Part shown: piece after piece, positions 47,247-62,805 of the stretch
Position numbering within the stretch: position 1 is the first letter of the stretch
Layout of the letters: the number at the start of each line of letters is the position of its first letter
Source of the DNA: Jaapia argillacea MUCL 33604
Lineage: Eukaryota > Basidiomycota > Agaricomycetes > Jaapiales > Jaapiaceae
NCBI GenBank assembly: GCA_000697665.1
Contig: KL197727.1
Span: forward strand, 186,001 to 250,000
Direction: 5' to 3'
DNA: 64,000 nt
Made by a program: the position numbers and the translations under genes
The notes under the pieces: model-generated
Databases searched by the model: none
The model's input: only the letters and a program-made list of their open reading frames with translations
What the model was told of the DNA's origin: nothing

Positions 47247-48481
47247 ATGTCACTGGCCCTTCCCTCCTTCCCTCAGGCTCAGCAAGCACAAATCAGTCCG
47301 TTCATTCTCACTTTCGATTTGGCTATAATTCTAATGATCTCTAATATCAGTCCGTGCAAATCAGAGAGATTTGTTTCATGTCGCTTCTCTGAGAGAGCAG
47401 ACCGAGAGCATACTACGCTCCTGGCTAGGTATGTCAGTGCCTCCTTCTGGGTTTCTGTTCCTGACCTGTGTTAGGGACGAGATGGTTGACGAGATGGGAC
47501 AAAGAAATTGAAGTCTTGGTGAAACTAGCTTACAATGGGTTGACAACAGGCCTCGGTGTGTGACTTCACCTTCCATGTCGGATTCGATATTCACCCTTCG
47601 TAACAGCGACACAGACGTTGGGAGAGGAGTACACCGACATATGGCAGCACTCTGCTCGTGTCCGAAAATTTCCTCCGCTTTATATGAGAGCAGCACTCAT
47701 TCTTCTCTCAACGATGCCTGGCTATTTCCTCTCAAGATGGCACTCCGCAAACCCTTCACCTTCCTCCCGACTGACCACCTTGTTACATGCAGTACCTACT
47801 GCTCTGGAAGTAATATCTGAAATTAACCTTGCAATCTTCTACCTGCGAGGGACATACTACGATTTGTCAAAGAGACTGCTCGGCATTCGTCACGTAGGCT
47901 CCTTCCTCCTGCTGAAGGACCCGAGTCTAACATCTTTCTGGTACATCAGATATCATCGATCCCAGAGGACCCTCACACTCGTCCACCGTCGTACGCATTG
48001 TTGGGCGTATTACTCGGTGTCCGGCTCATTCACCGGCTCGTTACTTTTCTTCGCGAGAGGTCCGCCAAATCACGTGCGGCATCATCGGCCTCGGGGAAAA
48101 CAAGACAATCTCTCGATGCTGTCAAGGAGACATTCCTTGACGATCGACCAGTATCATCATTACTAGGCCCTGTCGATCCTGAAGGGAAACCTGCGATTCC
48201 AGCTGAAGAGGATGAGAGGACATATCTCGATGTTACTGCAATCCCATCTACTTTGCGAGCCAGTCGGAGTTGTACCTTATGTCTAGAGGAACGGACCGCG
48301 AGTTGCGCTACAGATTGTGGGCACCTATTCTGCTGGGATTGCATTTATGGATGGGGGCGCGAAAAGGTTTGCATTTTTATTATTATCACTGAATCGAGCT
48401 CACTGTTGCGTTTAGGCAGAGTGCCCGTTATGTCGGCAAGCCTTGAGTCTCTCTAGATTGTTACCGATATACAACTTGTAG
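47247..48481 (+). CDS. PEX10: PEX10, peroxisomal RING-finger E3 ubiquitin ligase
   Basis: The spliced start [20 protein letters not shown] is followed by [33 protein letters not shown] and [20 protein letters not shown], the conserved N-terminal half of Pex10 with hydrophobic, membrane-embedded helices. The C-terminus carries the RING finger [20 protein letters not shown] then [20 protein letters not shown], with all zinc ligands present. With Pex2 and Pex12 it ubiquitinates the Pex5 receptor for recycling in matrix protein import. Introns lie near 47304-47352, 47425-47475, 47552-47607, 47912-47958 and 48367-48418; each junction was checked for frame and conserved protein. The protein ends [12 protein letters not shown] at 48479-48481. 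The length of about 320 residues is normal. Confidence 0.95.
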
Positions 48482-48614: not shown

Positions 48615-49244
48615 TCATAAGACCTGCTGTATCAGCGTGATGTTATCACCTTTCAGGAGGATACGTCCTGGTGGGTCATAAGTAAGGATCGAATGGAACC
48701 ATCGAGGAACAAACGCACCTAGTTCCCTTCTTGGCTTCGCATCCTTGACGTACACCTCCGCTGCCTCGTCAATAACAACATTCATAAACTCATCGAAGCC
48801 CTGAAACATAGGAATGGAGTGATATGAGTACGAAGTCGTCACTTCAGAAGCAGAGGCAATAGAGGGAGGGTCGGTGTGACGGAGATATCGCAAAATCGTG
48901 TCTCCAGTAAATGGCAGGCAGAGTCACGACAACGACAGCATAGCCTTCAACGAGGGAGACACGAGTTCAACGTCTTGATGTCACAGTTCGGTTGGGAACA
49001 CGCACAATTATTCGCCCTTCGATCCTCATTTCGATATTGTCGTACAGCCAGATCACAACTTTGGTTCGCTGAAGAGACATTATGTTAGCCAACAGCGCCC
49101 AGGGATACTCGTGTGGTACAAACCTGCTGGAGATTCTTGAAGATAACATTCTTGAAACCAACGTTAATTACTTCAACTTCTGCACAAAAAGAGCAAGAAA
49201 CTTACGATGGGCTGAACCATCACACGTTGTTGACGACCGGACAT
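48615..49244 (-). CDS. SNRPE: Sm-E, core protein of spliceosomal snRNPs
   Basis: Five exons give 87 residues: [62 protein letters not shown] and, at the end, [16 protein letters not shown]. The Sm1 and Sm2 motifs are complete ([10 protein letters not shown] and RILLKGDNI). Sm-E is one of seven proteins that form the ring on U1, U2, U4 and U5 snRNAs. The acceptor of the first intron is the AG after TTTCA (about 49174), not the earlier CAG, which would run into a stop. The product is almost entirely domain, slightly shorter than the human protein (92). Its start codon faces that of the dynein gene 197 bp away. Confidence 0.93.
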
Positions 49245-49441
49245 GATGGGCAAAAAATATAGAACAGAACGATCGTGCTGTGTTCGACGGTCGTCGGTTT
49301 TGCTGCTGAGCAGGTATTTGAGCGAAAGTGAGTGAAGGACACGCTGCAACGCCACGAGTCGGCCAACGCCGAGATGGCCAAAACTGGTGTCCCCTCGAAA
49401 CGCGTCGCCTCTCACTTTCTCGTGAACGCGCAGCTGGGACG

Positions 49442-52400
49442 ATGGAGGTGAGTTTGGTCAAATTTCAATCCTGCATCTGATTTATGACCGAGGATAACAG
49501 GTTCTGGCATCCTCCAACTCATCCACCGCTGCGGCGGTAACCTTCATTACCTTCGTTCAAGACCTGAAACGAAAGACCAAGACATGGGGACCTATGATAG
49601 AACTCTGCTCGGGCGGAGAAAAGACCTTAGAACGCTTTCGCTTCCAGTTCCCCGAGGACTGGCTCTACAGCGATCAACTTACTGGGGAATGGAGTGCGTT
49701 CAATGAGATCCTCAAGAGAAAGAACGACTCAATTCAGGAGCAACTCTGTGCGTATCACCACTTGTCACCACGCGTCCCTTACTTATGCTCTCGATGCCAT
49801 GTAGCTGGCCTTCAACTCAAGATCACGGCCGAGGACAAGATCGTGGAGAATAAGATCCATGATATCATCCTCGAGTGGGAGCAAACTCGCCCTATCCAGG
49901 GTAGCATGAGGGCGGACACGGCGTTGAACACTATCAATATCTTCGAGGGAAAGCTGAATCGTGTGCAAGAAGAGTACGACCTCGTCTGCAAGGCGAAGGA
50001 GGCTCTCGATTTAGAGCTCAGCCGACATACCCGGCTTGACCCTGTGTTCGAGGAACTTCGAGATTTGAAGGCGGTATGGACAGCACTCTCTGGTATCTGG
50101 AGTCAGATAGGAGAGCTGAGGGAGTTGTCGTGGGCGACAGTGCAACCGAGGAAGTTGCGACAGCAGATTGATGGGCTGCTTTCTTCGACGAAGGAGATGC
50201 CGACGCGGATGCGCCAGTATGCTGCCTTTGAATACGTTCAAGATGTGCTACGTGGCCTACTGAAGTCCAATACGATCATCTCCGAACTCAAGTCCGAGGC
50301 TCTGAAGGATAGACATTGGAAGCAGCTTTTCAAGGCACTAAGGATGCCATCGACCCCGAACCTGACATTGTATGCAATGACCGTCACCCTCGAATTGTTT
50401 CTGTCTGACGAGTCTCCAGGCTTACCCTAGGCAATGTTTATGATATGGATTTGAAGAGGAACGAATCGCTCATCAAGGAAGTTATCATTCAAGCCCAAGG
50501 AGAGGTTCGTTCACTCCGATTCACTCGCTGTAATTCCCGATGCTTAACTTTGTGGGCAGATGGCTCTCGAGGAGTATATCAAACAGGTGAAGGAGATCTG
50601 GACGAACTACACCTTGGACCTCGTCAACTACCAGAACAAGTGTCGTCTCATCAGGTGCGCCAAAGGCTTTGCTGTCAACCAGTTCCCGTGGACTCAACTC
50701 TGGCTCCAGAGGGTGGGATGACCTGTTCAACAAATGCAGTGAGAATCTGAACTCGTTAACCGCCATGAAGTTATCTCCATATTACAAAGGTGCGACTTCA
50801 TTTTCATCATGGACATTTCTGTGCTCTAATCTTACCGCCTCATTGCTCAGTTTTCGAGGAAGAGGTGCTTCGCTTGGTCAACTCTTCCTTTCATTTTCTG
50901 AAACCATCTTTAGGCGAGCTCCTGGGAAGAGAAACTTAACCGTATCCACGTTCTATTTGGTATGTGGCTCTCCTCTTTGCACCGGGATACGATCTTTGAT
51001 ATGGTTTGTCAGATGTCTGGATTGACGTTCAGCGTCAGTGGGTCTATTTGGAAGGTATCTTCTCGGGGAGTGCAGATATCAAGCATCTCCTTCCTGTCGA
51101 GAGTGCTCGCTTCCAGAATATCAACACCGAATTTCTGGCGGTGATGAAGAAAGTCTACAAGTCGCCCTTCGTTGTCGATGTCATGAATATCCCGGCAATC
51201 CAGAAGAGTTTGGAACGATTGGCCGATCTCCTCAACAAGATCCAGAAGGCTCTTGGAGAGTACCTCGAGAGGGAACGTTCCTCCTTCCCCCGTTTCTACT
51301 TCGTTGGTGACGAGGATTTGTTGGAGATCATCGGTAATAGCAAGGATATCCTCCGTATCATGAAGCATCTCAAGAAGATGTTTGCGGGCATCTCCACTAT
51401 CAAACTCGACGATGACTTGACGGAGATACAGGGTATGGCGTCTCGAGAGGGGGAGGAGATTGCGTTTAGGACACCCATCTTATTGAAGGATTTCCCGAAG
51501 ATCAACGACTGGTTGGCCAAGATCGAACTCGAAATGCGGTTATCGCTGGCTCAACTTCTGTCCGACGCTGTTGCGGAGCTACAGCTGTTCTATGGGAACG
51601 GGACTCAATTGGTGATGGAAACGTTCAAGGATTGGATGGAGAAGTACCCCGCGCAGCTTGTCACCCTCGCCATACAGGTCGCCTGGACGACATCTGTGGA
51701 CACCGCATTAGAGACCTCCGGCTCCCTCGACGCGCCTTTGACCACAGTACTCCAAGCACTGGAACTCCTTGCTGACGTCGTATTGACCGAGCTCACGCCT
51801 GTCACCCGCCGAAAATGCGAACATCTCATCACCGAACTTGTCCATCAGCGTGATGTCATCCGGACCCTTGTCCAGCAACGGATTACCGACAAACGCTCCT
51901 TCTCGTGGCTTTATCAAATGCGCTTCTACCTCGATCGCAGCATTGACAATCCCCTGGAACGCCTCTCCATCCGGGTCGCTGACGCTTCTTTCCCGTATGG
52001 ATGGGAGTACCTTGGAGTCCCTGATCGCCTTGTCCAGACCCCCTTGACGGACCGCACCTATCTTACATTGACGCAGGCATTGGACAATCAACTCGGTGGT
52101 GCTCCCTTTGGCCCCGCCGGAACTGGTCAGTGATCATCCCCAGTTACCTAGCTTCCACTGACTTCCGATGTGCAACAGGGAAAACGGAATCCGTGAAAGC
52201 CCTTGGGGTCCAGCTCGGTCGATTCGTCCTGGTCTTTTGCTGTGACGAGGCCTTTGATTTCCAGGCTATGGGTCGCATTTTCGTTGGATTATGCCAAGTC
52301 GGGGCTTGGGGGTGTTTTGATGAGTTCAATCGGCTGGAGGAGCGTATCCTCAGTGCTGTCTCGCAGCAAGTGCAGACTATCCAACAAGGTCTTGTAGCCC

Positions 52401-55400
52401 TTGCTAAGAATCCAAATGCCGAGATCGAACTCGTTGGCAAGAGTCTCAAGATGAATAAGAACATTGGTATGCTATACATTGGGAACCGTGTTCTACCATC
52501 TGATTCTCTTGGTTCTCAGGGATTTTCATTACCACCAACCCTAACTATGCTGGACGTTCGACTCTTCCCCCTAATTTGACCAAGTTATTCAGACCGTGCG
52601 TGACTGCTTCCCTCTTGGACTCACTGCTGGGTCTGAAATATTAGTATTCAGGATGGCCATGACTCGCCCAGATCGAGAATTGATCGCTCAGGTCATGTTA
52701 TTCTCCCAAGGTTTCCGAACTGCAGAGTCTCTGGCCTCCAAGATTGTGCCATTCTTCAATCTCTGTGACGAACAACTGTCCCCCCAACCCCATTACGACT
52801 TTGGTCTCCGGGCGTTAAAAGCCGTTCTAGCCAGTGCCGGTATTCTCAAGCGAGAACGCTTGCAGAGTGTTAGGGATGCGGAAGGAGATTCGGACAGTTC
52901 ACTCGGGCTGTCTGATGCCATCTCCGAGCAGGTTATCCTGATCCAAAGTGTCACGGAAACCATCGTTCCAAAGCTTGTCGCGGAGGACGTTCCTCTGTTG
53001 ACCAGGTCGGTGTTGCGTTCATCAAATTTCACTCTGGTGTTAACCTTTTCTTCTTCACCTAGCCTCCTCGCCGACGTCTTCCCCGGAGTTGACTATGAGC
53101 CAGTGAATTTGGATGCTCTTCAAGAGCAAATTCTGAAGGTCTGCGCGGAACGTAGATTGGTCCCCGGGGAACGATGGATATCCAAAATCCTTCAACTGTA
53201 CCAGATTCAGAAAATCCAACATGGCCTTATGATGGTCGGACCCTCCGGGACCGGAAAGTCGAACGCCTGGCAGGTGTTGTTGAAGGCTCTGGAGCAGCTT
53301 GATGGGATTGAAGGTGTCTCATATGTGATTGATCCCAAGGCTATGGACAAGGATGCGTTGTATGGCACGCTCGATCAGACCACACGAGAGTGGAATGACG
53401 GCCTATTCACCCACAATCTGCGAAAGATTGTGGATGATGTTCGTGGAGAAAGTGGAAAGCGTCACTGGATCATATTCGATGGCGATGTTGATCCTGAATG
53501 GGTGGAAAACTTGAACAGGTACTTCATCATGTCTTTCTTCCCGGGGAGTCTTTCCTGACATACATACAGCGTCCTGGACGATAATAAGTTGCTCACATTA
53601 CCAAACGGAGAGCGTCTCAACCTACCACCCAACGTTCGCATCATGTTTGAGGTCGAACACCTCAGATATGCGACGCTTGCGACCGTCAGTCGGTGCGGAA
53701 TGATCTGGTTTAGTGAAGATGTTGTGGAACCAGCCATGGTGTACCGCAACTATCTCGACACCTTGTCGATGGTCCCTCTCGATGCTGACGATGAAGATGC
53801 TGGCGACCTGCTCGCAAGACGTGTGGACACTATCCCTACCGAAGCCGCTTCATCAGTTCATCTAGTAACTCAAAAGCAAGTGGCTAGCATCCTTGAGCCG
53901 TACTTTGCGGAAGGAGATCTCGTCGGTGCTGCCTTGGACTTCGCAGCGTCGATGGAGCACATCATGGATTTCACTGTCACTCGCGCTCTCCATACGTTGT
54001 TCTCACTCATCAACAAGACCGTTCGCAACATCATCGAATATAATATCCAGCACTCCGATTTCCCGCTACCACCCGAGCGAGTCGAGCAGTACGTCACGAA
54101 GCGCCTACTCGTCAATATCATTTGGGCATTCTCAGGTGATGCGAAGCTTGAACTGCGAGCCGAAATGGGTGAATTCCTGCGCAAGCAGACTGGTATCGAC
54201 TTACCGCCGTTCGCTGCTGGCAATTCGTTGTTAGATTACGACGTTCAGGTTGCCAATGGTGAATGGTTGGCTTGGCAATCCAAAGTTCCTGTTATCGACA
54301 TCGAGTCGCATGCCGTCACAGCCTCCGACGTCGTTGTCCCCACAGTGGACACCATTCGTCATGAAGAGGTCCTCTATTCGTGGTTATCGGAACACAAGCC
54401 ACTCCTCCTATGCGGCCCTCCAGGTTCAGGAAAGACCATGACACTCTTCAGTGCACTCCGAAAATTGCCCGACATGGAAGTCGTTGGGCTCAATTTCTCC
54501 AGCGCGACAACGCCTGAATTGATTTTGAAGACTTTCGAGCAATATTGTGAATATCGAAAAACACCGAACGGCGTGGTTCTTGCTCCAATCCAGATCGGTC
54601 GCTGGCTTGTAGTGTTCTGCGATGAAATCAACTTACCAGCAACAGACAAGTACGGGACGCAAAGAGTTATTTCCTTCCTCCGGCAGCTCGTGGAGTGTAA
54701 TGGGTATTGGCGAACGACTGATATGTCGTGGGTGAAGCTGGAGCGCATTCAGTTCGTAGGAGCATGCAACCCGCCCACAGACCCTGGGCGTGTGCCACTC
54801 AGTCACAGGTTCCTTCGACACGCGCCCCTTGTCATGGTCGATTATCCAGGCGAGCTTTCTCTCAAACAAATCTACGGAACCTACACTCGCGCTGTCCTGA
54901 AGGTGGTACCGAACTTGCGCGCTTACGCCGAGCCCTTGACCGACGCTATGGTCATGTTTTATCTTGCGTCTCAAAAACGGTTTACAACGGACGTTCAAGC
55001 TCATTACGTTTACAGTCCTCGTGAACTCACCCGTTGGGTTCGTGGCATTTATGAAGCGATCCGTCCTCTGGAAATCCTCTCAGTCGAAGGACTCGTCCGA
55101 GTCTGGGCACACGAGGCACTCCGTTTGTTCCAGGACCGTCTCGTGACTGAAGACGAAAAGCAGTGGACCGACGAAAACATCGATTCTGTCGCGATGGAGC
55201 ACTTCCCAACGATTGGTCGCGATGAAGCTCTGGCTCGTCCAATACTTTTCTCAAACTGGACCTCCAAGAACTACATCCCGGTTGATCGTGAAGTCCTCCG
55301 AGAATACACTAAGGCCCGTTTGCGTGTCTTCTATGAGGAAGAACTAGACGTCCCCCTCGTTCTCTTCAACGATGTTCTCGATCACGTCCTCCGAATTGAT

Positions 55401-58400
55401 CGCGTTTTCCGCCAGATTCAGGGACATCTTCTTCTCATTGGTGTCAGCGGCAGCGGCAAGGTAATTGATTCTTCCCAACCTCGATATGTTAGCTTCTGAT
55501 CGTCATCGCGTTCTTCCTCAGACCACCCTGTCTCGTTTCGTGGCTTGGATGAACGGTCTCAGTATCTTCCAGATAAAAGTTTCCAACAAGTATACTGGCG
55601 AAGACTTCGACGAAGATCTACGCACAGTCCTCCGCCGCTCGGGTTGCAAGGGCGAAAAGATCTGCTTCATCATGGACGAATCGAACGTGTTGGATTCTGG
55701 CTTCTTGGAGCGTATGAACACCCTCCTGGCTAACGCGGAGGTTCCTGGTCTTTTCGAAGGTGACGAACACGCAGCGCTCATGACTGCTTGCAAAGAAGGG
55801 TCTCAGCGTGATGGATTAATGCTTGATTCTCATGAGGAGCTTTACAAATGGTTTACGGGCCAGGTGGCAAAGAATCTCCACGTCGTTTTCACCATGAATC
55901 CTCCAGAGAACGGGTTGGCGTCCCGGGCTGCGACATCTCCCGCACTGTTTAACCGTTGCGTCCTGGATTGGTTTGGTGATTGGTCCGATCAGGCGTTCTA
56001 CCAAGTCGGTATGGAGTTCACCCACACCCTGGATCTTGACTTGCCGTCATACAATCCTCCTGTCCATTTCCCCATTGCATATCGTGAACTATCGATGCCG
56101 CCGAACCACCGCACTGCCGTTGTCAACGCTCTTGTGTTTGTTCACATGTCGATGTATCAAGTCAATCAACGTCTCAGTCGCCGACAAGGCCGTTACAATT
56201 ATGTGACTCCCCGTCATTATTTGGATTTGTGAGATATCCTTTCTCCCTCCTCATGCTATATGAAGCTTAATAACTGCCTCGCCCACAGCATCAATCACTA
56301 TGTACGGCTATTCAACGAGAAGCGTAACGAACTGGAGGAACAACAACGCCACCTCCACGTAGGCCTCGACAAGCTCCGCGACACAGTGACACAAGTAGAA
56401 GAGTTGCGAAAGAGTCTAGCTATAAAGCGTTCGCAGCTGGAGGCCAAGAATGCTGAGGCTAACGAGAAGCTAAAACGCATGGTATCCGATCAGCAGGAGG
56501 CGGAGCAAAAGAAGGCGGCATCGATTGAGATTCAGGCCGCGCTTGTGGAGCAGGAGAAGCACATCGAGCAGCGAAGGGCTGTGGTTATGGCAGATCTCGC
56601 AGACGCAGAGCCTGCCGTCCTGGATGCGCAAGCCGCCGTCAGCAACATCAAGAGGCAACATCTTCAAGAAGTCAGGACGATGGCGAATCCACCTGAGGCT
56701 GTCAAACTCGCCATGGAATCGGTATGCACCGTCCTCGGCCACAAAATCGACAGTTGGCGCACTGTTCAAGGCATAATTCGACGGGATGATTTCATCCAGA
56801 GGATTGTCAATTTCGATACCACCAACCAAATGACAAAGCACATCCGAGAGTTGATGAGAAGAGATTTCCTCAGCCGTCCTTCTTTCAACTTCGAGACCGT
56901 CAACCGCGCCAGCAAAGCTTGTGGCCCACTGGTCAAATGGGTTATCGCTCAAGTCCGATTCTCAGAAATCCTCGACAAGGTCGAACCGCTTCGTAACGAG
57001 GTTCAGTCATTGGAAGACCAGGCTGAGAAAGCCAAAGAGCAGGCGAAATTGATCATCCAGATGATCGCGGAGCTGGAGACCAAAATCCAGCAATACAAGG
57101 AGGAATACGCCCTCCTTATCAGTGAAACGCAGGCCATCAAGTCCGAAATGGAACGGGTTCAAAGCAAGGTCGACCGAAGTATGAAGCTGCTCGATAGTTT
57201 GTCATCAGAGAGGGCCCGTTGGGAATCTGGAAGCCGCACTTTCGACGTGGAGATGAGCACAATTGTGGGTGACGTGCTCCTGTCCGCTGCCTTCCTCGCA
57301 TATGGAGGGTTTTTCGATCAACACTATCGAGAGGTTATGTGGCAGGAGTGGTCCAGCCACTTAGGCGAAGCAAGCGTTAAATTCAAGCAGGAGCTCTCCT
57401 TCCCGGAATACCTTTCCACTGCTGATGATCGGCTCAGCTGGCAATCTAAATCGCTACCCTCCGACAACCTATGCACAGAGAACGCTATCATGCTCAAGCG
57501 ATACAACCGATATCCCTTGGTTATTGATCCCACGGGCCAAGCAACTACATTCTTGCTGAACGAATACAGAGATCGCAAAATCACGGTCACAAGTTTCCTC
57601 GATGAGGCCTTCCTCAAAGTCCTTGAGAGTGCGTTGCGATTTGGAAATCCTCTTCTCATCCAGGACGTCGAGCATCTCGATCCCATTCTCAATGCCGTCC
57701 TCAACAAAGAAATCCGTCGCACCGGTGGGCGTGTTTTGATCCGTCTTGGCAATCAAGACATCGACTTCTCACCCTCTTTCACGATGTTCCTAACAACCCG
57801 GGATCCGTCTGTGGAGTTTTCTCCCGACATATGCAGTCGCGTCACGTTCGTCAACTTCACGATGACTCGAAGCAGTCTGCAGAGTCAGTCGCTGGACCAG
57901 GTTCTCAAGGTCGAACGGCCTGATACGGAGAGGCGACGGACGGATCTCATGAAAGTACAGGGGGAATTCCGGCTCCGTTTGCGTACCCTCGAAAAGCTCT
58001 TGTTGCAAGCGCTGAACGAGTCGACGGGGAGTATCCTTGATGACGACAAAGTTATCGACACGCTGGAAACACTGAAGCGAGAAGCCGCAGAGATTACAAA
58101 TAAAGTGGAAGAGACCGATATTGTTATGAAAGAGGTGGAGCAAGTAACAGCTGAATATCTCCCCTTGGCCCAAGCTTGCAGCTCGGTGTTCTTCATCTTG
58201 GAGCAGATGAACCTTGTCAACCACTTCTATCAATTCTCGCTTCGCTTCTTCCTCGACATATTCGACTACGTTCTCCACCAGAATCCCAACTTGAAGAATG
58301 TCGTGGACCACGGCCGGCGTCGGGACATTCTCCTCCATGATCTCTTCCTTGTTGTCTACAAGCGCACGTCGAGAGCACTGTTACATCGCGATCACCTTAT

Positions 58401-60912
58401 GCTTGCGGTACTCTTATCCCAGGTCAAACTACGGGGAATCGAAGAAATTGGCGATGAACTCGAGTTTCTGCTGGAGAGTGGAGAAGGCACTTCTGTCGGA
58501 GCTCCCCCGCTGGAGTCTAACTCCTCAATGTTTTCAGTCGATCAACTACACTCTCTGGACAGTTTCTCCAAGCACGGGATATTCAAACCCGTCAAACCCC
58601 ACATTGTAGAGCATGAGACAAATTGGCAAATTTTCCTCGAGTCCAACACTCCAGAGACATGCGTGCCGGCCCCATGGGAACCATCTACACGTAGGCGTCA
58701 TACTTTCCCCTCATTTGCATGATTCTAACTATCCTGTAGCCGCTGTCGAGGCCATTCGTGCAATCCTGCTCATCAAATGTTTCCGACCCGATCGCCTTTC
58801 GCAAGCGACAGCGAACTTCGTCCGAGTCGTATTCGAGACTGACTTATCGGTCGAGTCGAGTTATAATCTCGGGACAATGGTATCTGACGAGGTACTTCCC
58901 ACTACACCTCTCGCCCTCGTCTCCGTGGTTGGGTATGATGCCAGTTATCGAGTGGATAGCCTTGTTCAGAATACAGGCGCGCGATGCGGGTCAGTGGCGA
59001 TGGGTTCACAGGAAGGCTTTACCTTGGCCGACCAAGCAATCGCCATGGCGGCACGGCAGGGTTCCTGGGTTCTCCTCAAGAACGTTCATCTGGCCCCGTC
59101 TTGGCTTGGGCAACTGGAAAAGAAGCTCCAGACCCTCAACCCTCACCGCAACTTCCGACTCTTCCTCACGATGGAGGCGAATCCTTCCATCCCTGTTAAC
59201 ATTCTTCGTCAGTCTCGAATCATCATGAATGAACCTCCCCCTGGAATCAAAGCCAATCTTCTCGATTCTTTGCGGAGCATCTCCATTCCTCGTCTCAGCC
59301 AGGGTCCAGCGGAGAAGGTCCGTTTGTATTTCTTGTTAGCCTGGTTCCATGCAGTTGTCCAAGAACGATTGCGATACGTCCCCCTCGGGTGGAGCAAGAC
59401 TTACGACTTCAACGATTCCGACATGTCGTCTGCCTTTGGCACCATCGACACATGGCTCAACGCAGTTGCGCGTGGACGGACAAACATTGATCCCGCTGCT
59501 ATCCCATGGGATGCGCTGAGGACCTTGGTGAAGCAATCCGTATATGGTGGGAGGGTCGATAGTGACTTCGACCAGCGGATTCTCGATGCTTTCGTTGATG
59601 GATTATTCACCGCATCAGCCTACAATGTTGACTTCAACCTTGTTCCGAGCACAAACGGGGAGCAAACTCTGACTACACCTGAGGGCACAAAACTTGACCA
59701 TTTCCTATCATGGGTCCAAGGCTTGCCGGATCGAGAGCCACCTTCCTGGCTTAGCCTCCCCCCTACCGCAGAACGGCTTATCGCCATTGCTCAAGGCCAG
59801 TATCTCCTTACCTTCAGTCAGTCTCACAAATAAACAGTTTACATTTGTTCTCCAGGCAAGGAACTTCTCGGCAAGTTACGGAAGATGCGGATGCTTGCGG
59901 ACGACGAAGATGATGTTGTCGCTGTGGGGGGGCCGTCCAAGGGCGTGCCCAATCAACAACCTGCTTGGATGCGTAACCTTCACGATCGCTGCAATGAATG
60001 GCTTTCACAGTTGCCAGCAGTATGTGTCTTTCTCAATCATTGCACTTACTCGCTCACACCGCTATTATCCCAGGCCTTCAACACCCTTTCCAAACCGTCG
60101 AATGATAATCAAGACCCCCTATACCGTCTATTTTTCCGAGAGGGTGCTGTTGGCCACCAACTGCTTGTTCAAGTGCGCAAGGACCTTAGCGACGTTGCCA
60201 AAGTTTGCCAGGGAGCTCTCAAGCAGACGAATCACCTCCGTACCCTCATGAGTTCACTAACGAAAGGTCCGTAATGCTAATGGCTCCTGCGTATCTAATT
60301 TTTCACAATTAACACCGTTCAGGTACTATTCCGCCCCATTGGAGACGCTACAACGTCCACAAAGCGATGTCTGTCGCAGAGTGGATCCCAAATCTCAGTC
60401 GCCGATTGGCTCAACTCGACACAGTGGCTGGTTTGGATAGTTTGAACGACATCGAAGTATGGTTGGGCGGCCTCTTCTTCCCCGAAGCATATATCACAGC
60501 CACTAGACAAGCTGTCGCTCATCGAAAGAAGTGGAGTCTGGAAACTCTGCATCTTCGGTTGGATATTGAGAAGATGAACGACCCGGCGGCATTCATTGTG
60601 GACGGTAAGTCAGCTCAGATCTCAACATTAGGTATAGCGACTGATAATCTACTAGGCCTTGTACTTGAAGGAGCTGCCTGGTCGTCGGACAAGCTGGTCC
60701 TCAACGACGGCGAATCTGTCCGGCTGAATCCCTCCCAGATCCGTTGGGTTCAGTCAGAAGATTATGACACCTCGCAGGGGACAATCGTGAACTTGCCAGT
60801 CTATTTGAACAACGACAGGAGCGATGTTCTATTCACGGTAGACCTTCCTTTTGATCGTAGCGCCGGTGCATTGGTTGCTATGCGCGCAGTTTGTCTCACC
60901 GCGAGCGGCTAG
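49442..60912 (+). CDS. Cytoplasmic dynein heavy chain, linker-motor half of a two-gene chain
   Basis: Exon 1 encodes only Met-Glu (49442-49447); after an intron the protein runs [20 protein letters not shown] to [20 protein letters not shown], a place that in full-length cytoplasmic dynein lies about 1,100 residues in. The linker follows, then six AAA modules: AAA1 Walker A GPAGTGKTES (split by intron 52126-52178), AAA2 GPSGTGKS (about 53237), AAA3 GPPGSGKT (about 54411), AAA4 GVSGSGK-T (split near 55460), and AAA5-6 without P-loops. The stalk coiled coils flank the microtubule-binding tip at about 56290-57230. The C-terminal domain ends [19 protein letters not shown] estimate 3,500 residues against about 4,600 for a whole chain. 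The missing cargo-binding tail is not upstream: SNRPE starts only 197 bp away. Agaricomycetes are reported to encode dynein heavy chain in two genes, and this fits the motor half. All visible catalytic motifs are intact. Confidence 0.93.
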
Positions 60913-61081: not shown

Positions 61082-62262
61082 TCAATTGTCGACACAGCTG
61101 CCTCCGACTACCTCTAACACCTTCCAATCTACCTCGACACCTTCCTTTCGGAAAATAGTCCGGGCGTCCTCCGCGATCGCTTCAAACCCACCAGTCGCTA
61201 AAGCTAATATCGTCGGGCCAGCCCCTGACAGGCAAATTCCCAACAGTCCTGGATGGCTTTCTGGTGTAATATTTGAAGTGACCTCAGGTAAGCCAGGTAT
61301 CTAGACGGAATCACGATTGGGATCATCTTTATGGATAGAAAAGCAAAGGAATGCAGGTACCAATGCTTTCCGATATGGCTGATGAATCCGATCTTTCATT
61401 GCTTCGTAAATCAGCTCGGGGTCGGGAGGGTGTTGAGCTAAAGCCGTCGTTAACACAGCTAGGCGTTGAAGGTTAAAGACCTAAAGATTACGACCGTCAA
61501 GCTTGACCATGGTCGTGTAGACGAAGGACGAACCAAATCTTTGCGAGAATACACGAGGGGTAGAACTTCTCTAGCTTTTGCTGTACTTAATTCAAACCTC
61601 GGGATAATGGCGACTGCTCTGATAGTCTCAGACCACCCAAACCGAACGTAATGTCCGATTCCAAATGGTGGAACTGGGGGATGCATACCCCACTCCTCAC
61701 TGGCATCTGCTGGATATTCTGGGAGGACTTCTGAGAGAGGTACACTAGCCGCCTCTGTTGCCGCATGGTCCAACTCCCTCAGGTATGACCCCACAAACCC
61801 GCCGATAAGGGCAGCAGTGACGTTATCCGGATGCCGTTCGACCATCAGGGCAAAATCGAGTTGTCGAGATATGCTAAGACTGAGACGTCCAAGCTGGTCC
61901 CCGAGTAAGACACCCGCGATGACGGCGGCTCCTGAAGAACCTAACCCTCGACCAAAGGGGATTTCGTTGATGACATGGATGGAGAGGTTTGAAGGGAAGT
62001 GAGGCATGTCATGACACCGAAGTAAGTATAGTGCCACTCGGGTCGTAAGGTTCTTGTAGGCGTCGAGGGGGACTTCGTCTGATCCTTCCCCTTCGTATGT
62101 TAACAGCGGGGGACGAGGGGGACAAGAAGGTGTCGGGCTGGTTATCGTCACTTTGAGGGTTAACCAAAGGGACAGGGAGAGGCCGACGACGTCGAAGCCA
62201 GGTCCGATGTTTGCTGAGGTAGCTGGGACTCGGATTGAGAATGTACGGGGTTCGGAGGCCAT
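61082..62262 (-). CDS. THR1: Homoserine kinase
   Basis: The product starts MASEPRTFSIRVPATSANIG PGF-like, the GHMP kinase N-terminus (PATSANIGPGFDVVGLSL). The ATP loop is PFGRGLGSSGAAVIAGVLLG. Motif 3 near the end reads CLSGAGPTILALA. Homoserine kinase makes O-phosphohomoserine in threonine synthesis. Introns lie near 61492-61545 and 61309-61368; the protein ends EVVGGSCVDN at the stop 61082-61084. Length is about 355 residues, normal for Thr1. It converges on the dynein gene with 169 bp between stops. No unusual residue was noted. Confidence 0.93.
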
Positions 62263-62805
62263 GGGGGACCAATTGTACTGCCTGTGCTCGACCCTTCACA
62301 GTGGACACATCCAAGACGATCGAACATCAGATGTGTCGTGGTGAAGGAAGGAGCTGACTGCACAATACTGACTCGGGCTATTCACTTGAGAGGGTTGTCC
62401 GGTTTCGTAGAGTATGATCTGGTAGAAAGAGTCTGAAGCTGACCTTGCAGACGCAGATCGAGTCACCCATGGTTAAAATCTCCCCTTTCCTTTTGGGGCG
62501 TAAATTGAATCCATCCGACTTGCACCCGACGGACAGAGTCCTCAAGCAGCGACTGTTTTCAATCCTTTTCAACCTCCAGAGCCTGCATTTGTGATTGGAG
62601 GACGGAGGACGATGAAAAGAGCGTTGGTATTACCGATACAGTAAGTAGAAATGGTAGTAAGATACAAGCAGTACAACAAGGTACAACGCCATCAAGGCAA
62701 CAAGTGGCACGTGAATGAGAAATCGCAGTAAATAAGTTATGATAAACTTGATAATCGTAGTGTTAACACCCAAGCATCGTTTCGAGTACCAGACCCCCGG
62801 ACGGC
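62263..62805. other. Intergenic, upstream of THR1
   Basis: This 543-bp stretch lies between the homoserine kinase start and the 3' end of the last gene, which is on the same strand. TACAAG-type direct repeats near 62665-62690 are short. No gene was recognised. Confidence 0.45.

Follow-up and report, generated by a model that had tools for sequence, protein, structure and literature searches.

In Schizophyllum commune, other Agaricomycetes and Dacrymycetes, the dynein heavy chain is reported to be encoded by two genes (Brunsch et al. 2015, PMC4540427), and three independent heavy-chain splits have been described within the Basidiomycota (PMC4540427). Table 3 of that report gives the agaricomycete joint, e.g., SIEGLVGAPRRF, together with the sequence SIEG-SSTAQAV of Ustilago maydis, which is uncut there. 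At the split point, ten agaricomycetes have very similar peptides, and the eleventh row, Coprinopsis, has unrelated ones (PMC4540427). Here we describe a window of 64,000 nucleotides from Jaapia argillacea MUCL 33604 (contig KL197727.1, positions 186,001 to 250,000), within which a gene at window positions 49442-60912 had been predicted, from the letters alone, to be a dynein heavy chain gene holding only linker and motor. Below, positions refer to the window unless a contig is named. We consider it very probable that this gene is dhc2 of the known agaricomycete split dynein and that a single cytoplasmic heavy chain is made in this fungus as two polypeptides. The original prediction treated two-gene dynein as established in Agaricomycetes, in agreement with the 2015 publication, and valued the window for the exact start of a motor half. 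That start was indeed located, at 49442, but the split point is not new (PMC4540427, Table 3). The case is thus a confirmation and not a surprise, and its novelty is low because both the split and its exact position in Agaricomycetes are already in print.

The dhc2 gene (49442..60912, + strand) opens with a coding exon of two codons, ATGGAG (M-E, 49442..49447), followed by a phase-0 intron of 53 bp (49448..49500) that was assigned from sequence only, with the donor GAG|GTGAGT at 49448 and the acceptor TAACAG ending at 49500. Conserved dynein protein runs from 49501 onwards, and exon 2 (49501..49747) aligns with the human chain from Dhc2 residue 7 (human residue 1159). The curated model, an automatic splice model corrected by hand in the light of open frames and of the general make-up of other dyneins, ends with the stop codon at 60912 and comprises 21 exons, 20 introns and 3458 amino acids. 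Four introns of the automatic model (at 50074, 54752, 57807 and 58478) were removed, as each would cut out sequence presumed to be conserved among dyneins. One uncertain intron (59796-59855), probably of the GC-AG type (AAG|GCCAGT...CTCCAG), was used in the final model; the alternative, an unusually short GT-AG intron of 39 bp, gives 3465 amino acids, and the choice between the two leaves the split-dynein argument untouched.

The Pfam scan covered five of the 21 dhc2 exons and returned DHC_N2, AAA_6, AAA_7, the start of AAA_8, the microtubule-binding stalk (MT), AAA_9 and the D6 domain (Dynein_heavy); it did not distinguish all six AAA modules one by one. The matches to DHC_N2 (linker region) and the start of AAA_6 (AAA1) were located in 49807..52124, a stretch with introns inside, of which the exons 49807-50367 and 51015-52124 were scanned. 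Dynein_AAA_lid, AAA_7, DYN_lid and the start of AAA_8 (AAA4) followed in 53571..55460, the stalk and AAA_9 in 56290..58689, and the D6 P-loop with AAA_lid_11 in 58742..59794, all on the + strand; AAA_7 and AAA_9 are taken by us to be AAA3 and AAA5. The model contains four Walker A motifs, at residues 746, 1049, 1424 and 1766, GVSGSGKT among them. In a PDB sequence search, the N-terminal 265 amino acids of Dhc2 matched human dynein far beyond chance (E = 2.9e-83); this top match was cytoplasmic dynein 1 heavy chain 1, and the first axonemal dynein followed at 1.7e-10. By these alignments and domains, the dhc2 product is assigned to cytoplasmic dynein-1 as a part of its heavy chain. The predicted arrangement, an ATG exon followed by an intron and a junction far inside the chain, was therefore borne out by splice signals, Pfam and the human alignment. 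Linker and motor are both present, but the word "only" has to be given up: residue 166 of Dhc2 pairs with residue 5 of the solved 3328-amino-acid construct 8dyu, and the first ~160 residues of Dhc2 are accordingly read as distal tail.

The rest of the tail was sought in the host genome (43.7 Mb, 95 contigs) by six-frame searches in which only the best candidates were scored. The DHC_N1 profile matched three stretches, all within one gene, dhc1, on another contig (C41:55152-50892, - strand), as expected from the prediction that the tail is not contiguous with the motor gene. A separate tail gene of about 1,100 residues had been anticipated; the one found has 12 exons and 11 introns, encodes ~1205 amino acids in the model and ends exactly where the motor gene begins. 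Two dhc1 start codons were modelled (1226 and 1203 amino acids), the second, better-scoring one was kept, and the curated form has 1205 amino acids; the start codon is less sure than the end of the protein, which reads LEHHSIEGLVGSSRRY-stop, or in longer form ARNDLEHHSIEGLVGSSRRY-stop. The last dhc1 exon and dhc2 exon 2 (82 amino acids) each had a single matching place in the genome, and both DHC_N2 matches were inside dhc2. No second or uncut dynein heavy chain was found among the best-scored candidates of the DHC_N1, DHC_N2 and exon searches. Within the reach of these searches, the genome encodes a single dynein heavy chain, divided between two genes. The dynactin-family domain PF12455 is present and the light intermediate chain gave one weak match (E = 1.7e-4), and partners of the dynein complex therefore seem to exist in this genome.

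The location of dhc1 and dhc2 on different contigs of a 95-contig assembly is what would be seen if one real gene had been broken up through contig misjoining or an overlooked exon further upstream. However, neither gene is at a contig end (dhc2, C19:235442-246912 of 751439; dhc1, C41:50892-55152 of 288818), dhc1 has its own stop and dhc2 its own start at the joint, and the cut equals that published for ten other species (PMC4540427). Moreover, the 197 bp between dhc2 and its divergent neighbour SNRPE are too little for 1160 residues. With the tail gene found and both genes inside contigs, an artefact of assembly or annotation was rejected and is given virtually no probability.

The two proteins fit together on the human chain. 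In the PDB sequence search, the end of Dhc1 aligned to residues 1005-1160 of human DYNC1H1 and residues 7-264 of Dhc2 to residues 1159-1421; as the one match ends at 1160 and the other begins at 1159, the halves abut at human residue 1160 with no residue missing. Beyond the aligned parts, Dhc1 carries an overhang of 8 residues, LVGSSRRY, and Dhc2 has 6 residues ahead of its aligned part, or 8 ahead of SSTA (MEVLASSN). The cut falls between SIEG and SSTAAAV and is flanked by terminal peptides like those of Table 3, from whose rows they differ by a few residues (PMC4540427); the Dhc1 split peptide given there for Ganoderma, RNDLEHQSIEGLVGAPRRF, matches that of this genome. Judged by these peptides, the gene pair is plainly the same split as the published agaricomycete one.

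The terminal peptides were tallied over 11 rows, comprising ten of the eleven published split-site rows and this genome. The Coprinopsis row was excluded before counting because both its peptides are unrelated (probably mis-annotated), and the table's five rows for species lacking this cut did not enter the tally. After SIEG, the Dhc1 end follows the pattern L-x-G-x-x-R-R-F/Y, with L, G, R and R fixed in 11/11 rows and the last residue being F in ten and Y in one. This peptide is missing from all five table rows uncut at this site, and conserved residues at a newly made terminus suggest a function. Dhc2 starts with ME in 9/11 rows; of the other two, one carries ME at position 3, and that of S. 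commune shows neither arrangement. In J. argillacea, ME forms an exon of its own. The published Dhc2 starts of F. mediterranea and C. cinerea read MEVR (PMC4540427), which would fit ATGGAG with read-through of a GTGAG-type intron.

The tiny first exon of dhc2 precedes an intron with an acceptor that might, in principle, be used by a different donor; this would permit trans-splicing of the dhc1 and dhc2 RNAs into a message for one uncut chain, and a phase-0 GT (CTA|GTGGGA) was seen by eye near the dhc1 end. The GT sites that follow SIEG ahead of the dhc1 stop (GTCTAG, GTGGGA, GTTCTC and GTAGAT) nevertheless look, also by eye, like poor donors, and the most donor-like site, GAG|GTACGC, sits past the stop codon. 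All 11 rows conserve the stretch of Dhc1 from SIEG to the stop, as expected of a true C-terminus, and a trans-spliced protein would hold extra residues that are missing from dyneins uncut there. Given the weak donors and the conserved Dhc1 end, trans-splicing, which we examined on the sequence, was judged unlikely, to the point of being nearly negligible.

We thus favour one heavy chain made as two separate proteins, of which Dhc1 (~1205 amino acids, C41) would provide the tail up to human residue 1160 and Dhc2 (~3458 amino acids, window) the remaining tail together with linker, AAA ring and stalk. Each would be translated separately, and the two would then fold together via their tail helices. 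The break probably falls within a short loop between two tail helices, each half keeping whole helices, and the halves would be held by non-covalent packing of helix against helix, in the way in which an uncut chain would fold. Force would pass through this packing at the joint, to whose stability the short peptides newly formed at the cut may contribute. By eye, the sequence there (S, G, T and N between helix-like stretches) looks loop-like. In a single-sequence AlphaFold model of exon 2, residues 1-6 were non-helical and a helix began at residue 7, at a low mean predicted local distance difference test score of 56, so that a loop at the cut is weakly indicated. In S. commune, deletions of dhc1 or dhc2 share defects in growth, cell length and nuclear position, and the two proteins potentially co-localise (PMC4540427). 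Of the nine helical bundles of human dynein, numbers 4-5 bind the intermediate chain and numbers 6-7 the light intermediate chain (PMC5473941); a review assigns the latter to bundle 6 (PMC10886578). Residue numbers for the bundle boundaries were not found in the literature covered. By rough estimate, human residue 1160 would be situated around bundles 7-8, so that the joint could have the light intermediate chain close by.

A more specific role for the new peptides is possible, though we hold it rather doubtful: the cut may have made a molecular clasp, in which the new Dhc1 end, L-x-G-x-x-R-R-F/Y-COOH, and the Dhc2 head, M-E-...-S-N, bind each other or the neighbouring helices. Neither peptide occurs in the five fungal dyneins that the published table includes as uncut at that point. 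If such a clasp exists, purifying selection would retain both peptides because they hold the force-bearing joint, and they may have originated by read-through of both ends of an intron or flank that an ancestor had at the break. One sentence in Brunsch et al. (PMC4540427) names an unknown interaction at the break, which a clasp would make specific.

Several points count against the two-polypeptide account as set out here. The placement of the loop relies on a by-eye reading of the sequence and on a model of low confidence, translation as two proteins is for this species inferred from the DNA, and the joint between the halves was read from sequence, not from a structure of a split dynein. Furthermore, the S. 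commune dhc2 deletion strain cannot accept nuclei, whereas the dhc1 deletion strain mates normally (PMC4540427), a difference that a pure two-halves view does not fully explain. This difference in mating speaks for the proposal of Brunsch et al. that Dhc1 and Dhc2 also have separate jobs (moonlighting), with some Dhc1 or Dhc2 acting by itself, which would account for the persistence of the split. Against it, neither half seemed, a few residues at the cut aside, to have gained a domain, as judged from a scan of part of the exons, and that study obtained only one dhc1 deletion strain (PMC4540427). We consider moonlighting improbable.

The map positions in J. argillacea also stand against the two-polypeptide account. 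A peptidase M3 gene beside homeodomains at C2:1171440-1176735, on a contig of 2.54 Mb, was presumed to be matA by gene content only, the peptidase M3 being taken as the MIP-like neighbour that presumably accompanies matA. With dhc2 on C19 (0.75 Mb), the distance between dhc2 and matA is at least 1.41 Mb even if the contigs adjoin, given a correct assembly; dhc1 (C41) and dhc2 are at least 0.29 Mb apart, and looser linkage is compatible with these positions. The matA linkage stated for all dhc2 homologs and the single scaffold stated for dhc1 and dhc2 (PMC4540427) were thus not found here. Both are map features reported for the species studied and do not define the split, and our data suggest that close matA linkage is not a general property of split dynein. 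Other homeodomain matches occur elsewhere in the genome, none of them on C19 or C41, and besides the peptidase M3 match beside the homeodomains there are more on C3 (889270-901644) and C22 (123377-316458).

Upstream of dhc2, the original prediction had placed SNRPE 197 bp away on the other strand, which proved correct. The gene for this LSM-domain protein E of small nuclear ribonucleoproteins (48615..49244, - strand; introns assigned by eye) has a Pfam LSM domain and its start codon at 49244, so that the gap to the dhc2 start codon, presumed to be a shared promoter region, spans 49245..49441. The gap contains two ATGs (49246 and 49374), neither in frame with dhc2, as well as the in-frame TGA codons 49307 and 49319; no in-frame ATG upstream of dhc2 was present within these 197 bp. 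By eye, the out-of-frame ATGGCC at 49374 opens a frame that overruns the dhc2 start (49374-49447); if transcribed, this ATG could lower dhc2 translation. Further upstream, beyond SNRPE, an open frame at 47827-48456 has a RING-finger-like pattern and looks peroxin-10-like by eye. Downstream of dhc2, a gene with a GHMP kinase domain (Pfam) lies at 61459-62295 on the - strand, by eye that of a homoserine kinase.

Among the papers listed by searches of open-licence literature, no later study of the agaricomycete split was recognised by title or abstract. A kinesin review of 2022 (PMC8950801) touches on the split in passing, and another article (PMC8230515) has a single mention of the heavy chain. 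Further basidiomycete loci, split or uncut, were absent from the viral contigs searched, and the genome contigs gave only one distant dynein fragment. The fragment, of 27% identity, lies at 5001-5396 of contig L010, from a metagenome-assembled genome labelled Verrucomicrobiaceae, and is probably eukaryotic contamination. The dynein heavy chain must transmit force from motor to cargo, and a chain that is naturally cut where it bears the load offers a ready-made test of the strength of helical packing. The present genome adds one further case and places the cut on the human chain at residue 1160. It also adds the two-codon start exon, the 8-residue Dhc1 end kept in 11/11 rows and the position of the presumed matA on another contig.

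Compared with the known systems, human DYNC1H1 can be aligned on both sides of the cut, at its residue 1160, but is one chain. Wallemia, like J. argillacea, is a basidiomycete with a two-gene heavy chain; its cut, however, falls after residue 1979, between AAA1 and AAA2 (PMC4540427). In Ustilago maydis, the heavy chain is likewise encoded by two genes, dyn1 and dyn2, whose products are both reported in one complex, but the cut is within the fourth AAA module, inside the motor, and is described as an independent event (PMC4540427). In J. argillacea, AAA_6, AAA_7, the start of AAA_8, the stalk, AAA_9, D6 and all four Walker A motifs are found together in dhc2, unlike the arrangement expected of a Ustilago-type cut within AAA4. 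Both the Ustilago split inside the motor and the two-gene heavy chain of S. commune had been stated correctly in the original prediction (PMC4540427). The closest counterparts are S. commune and other Agaricomycetes, which share with J. argillacea the pair of genes and the place of the cut, SIEG-LVG..RRF-stop (PMC4540427). The proteins of the S. commune report have 1180 and 3450 amino acids, compared with ~1205 and 3458 here, and the published intron counts are 9 and 16, compared with 11 in dhc1 and 20 in dhc2 in our models (PMC4540427).

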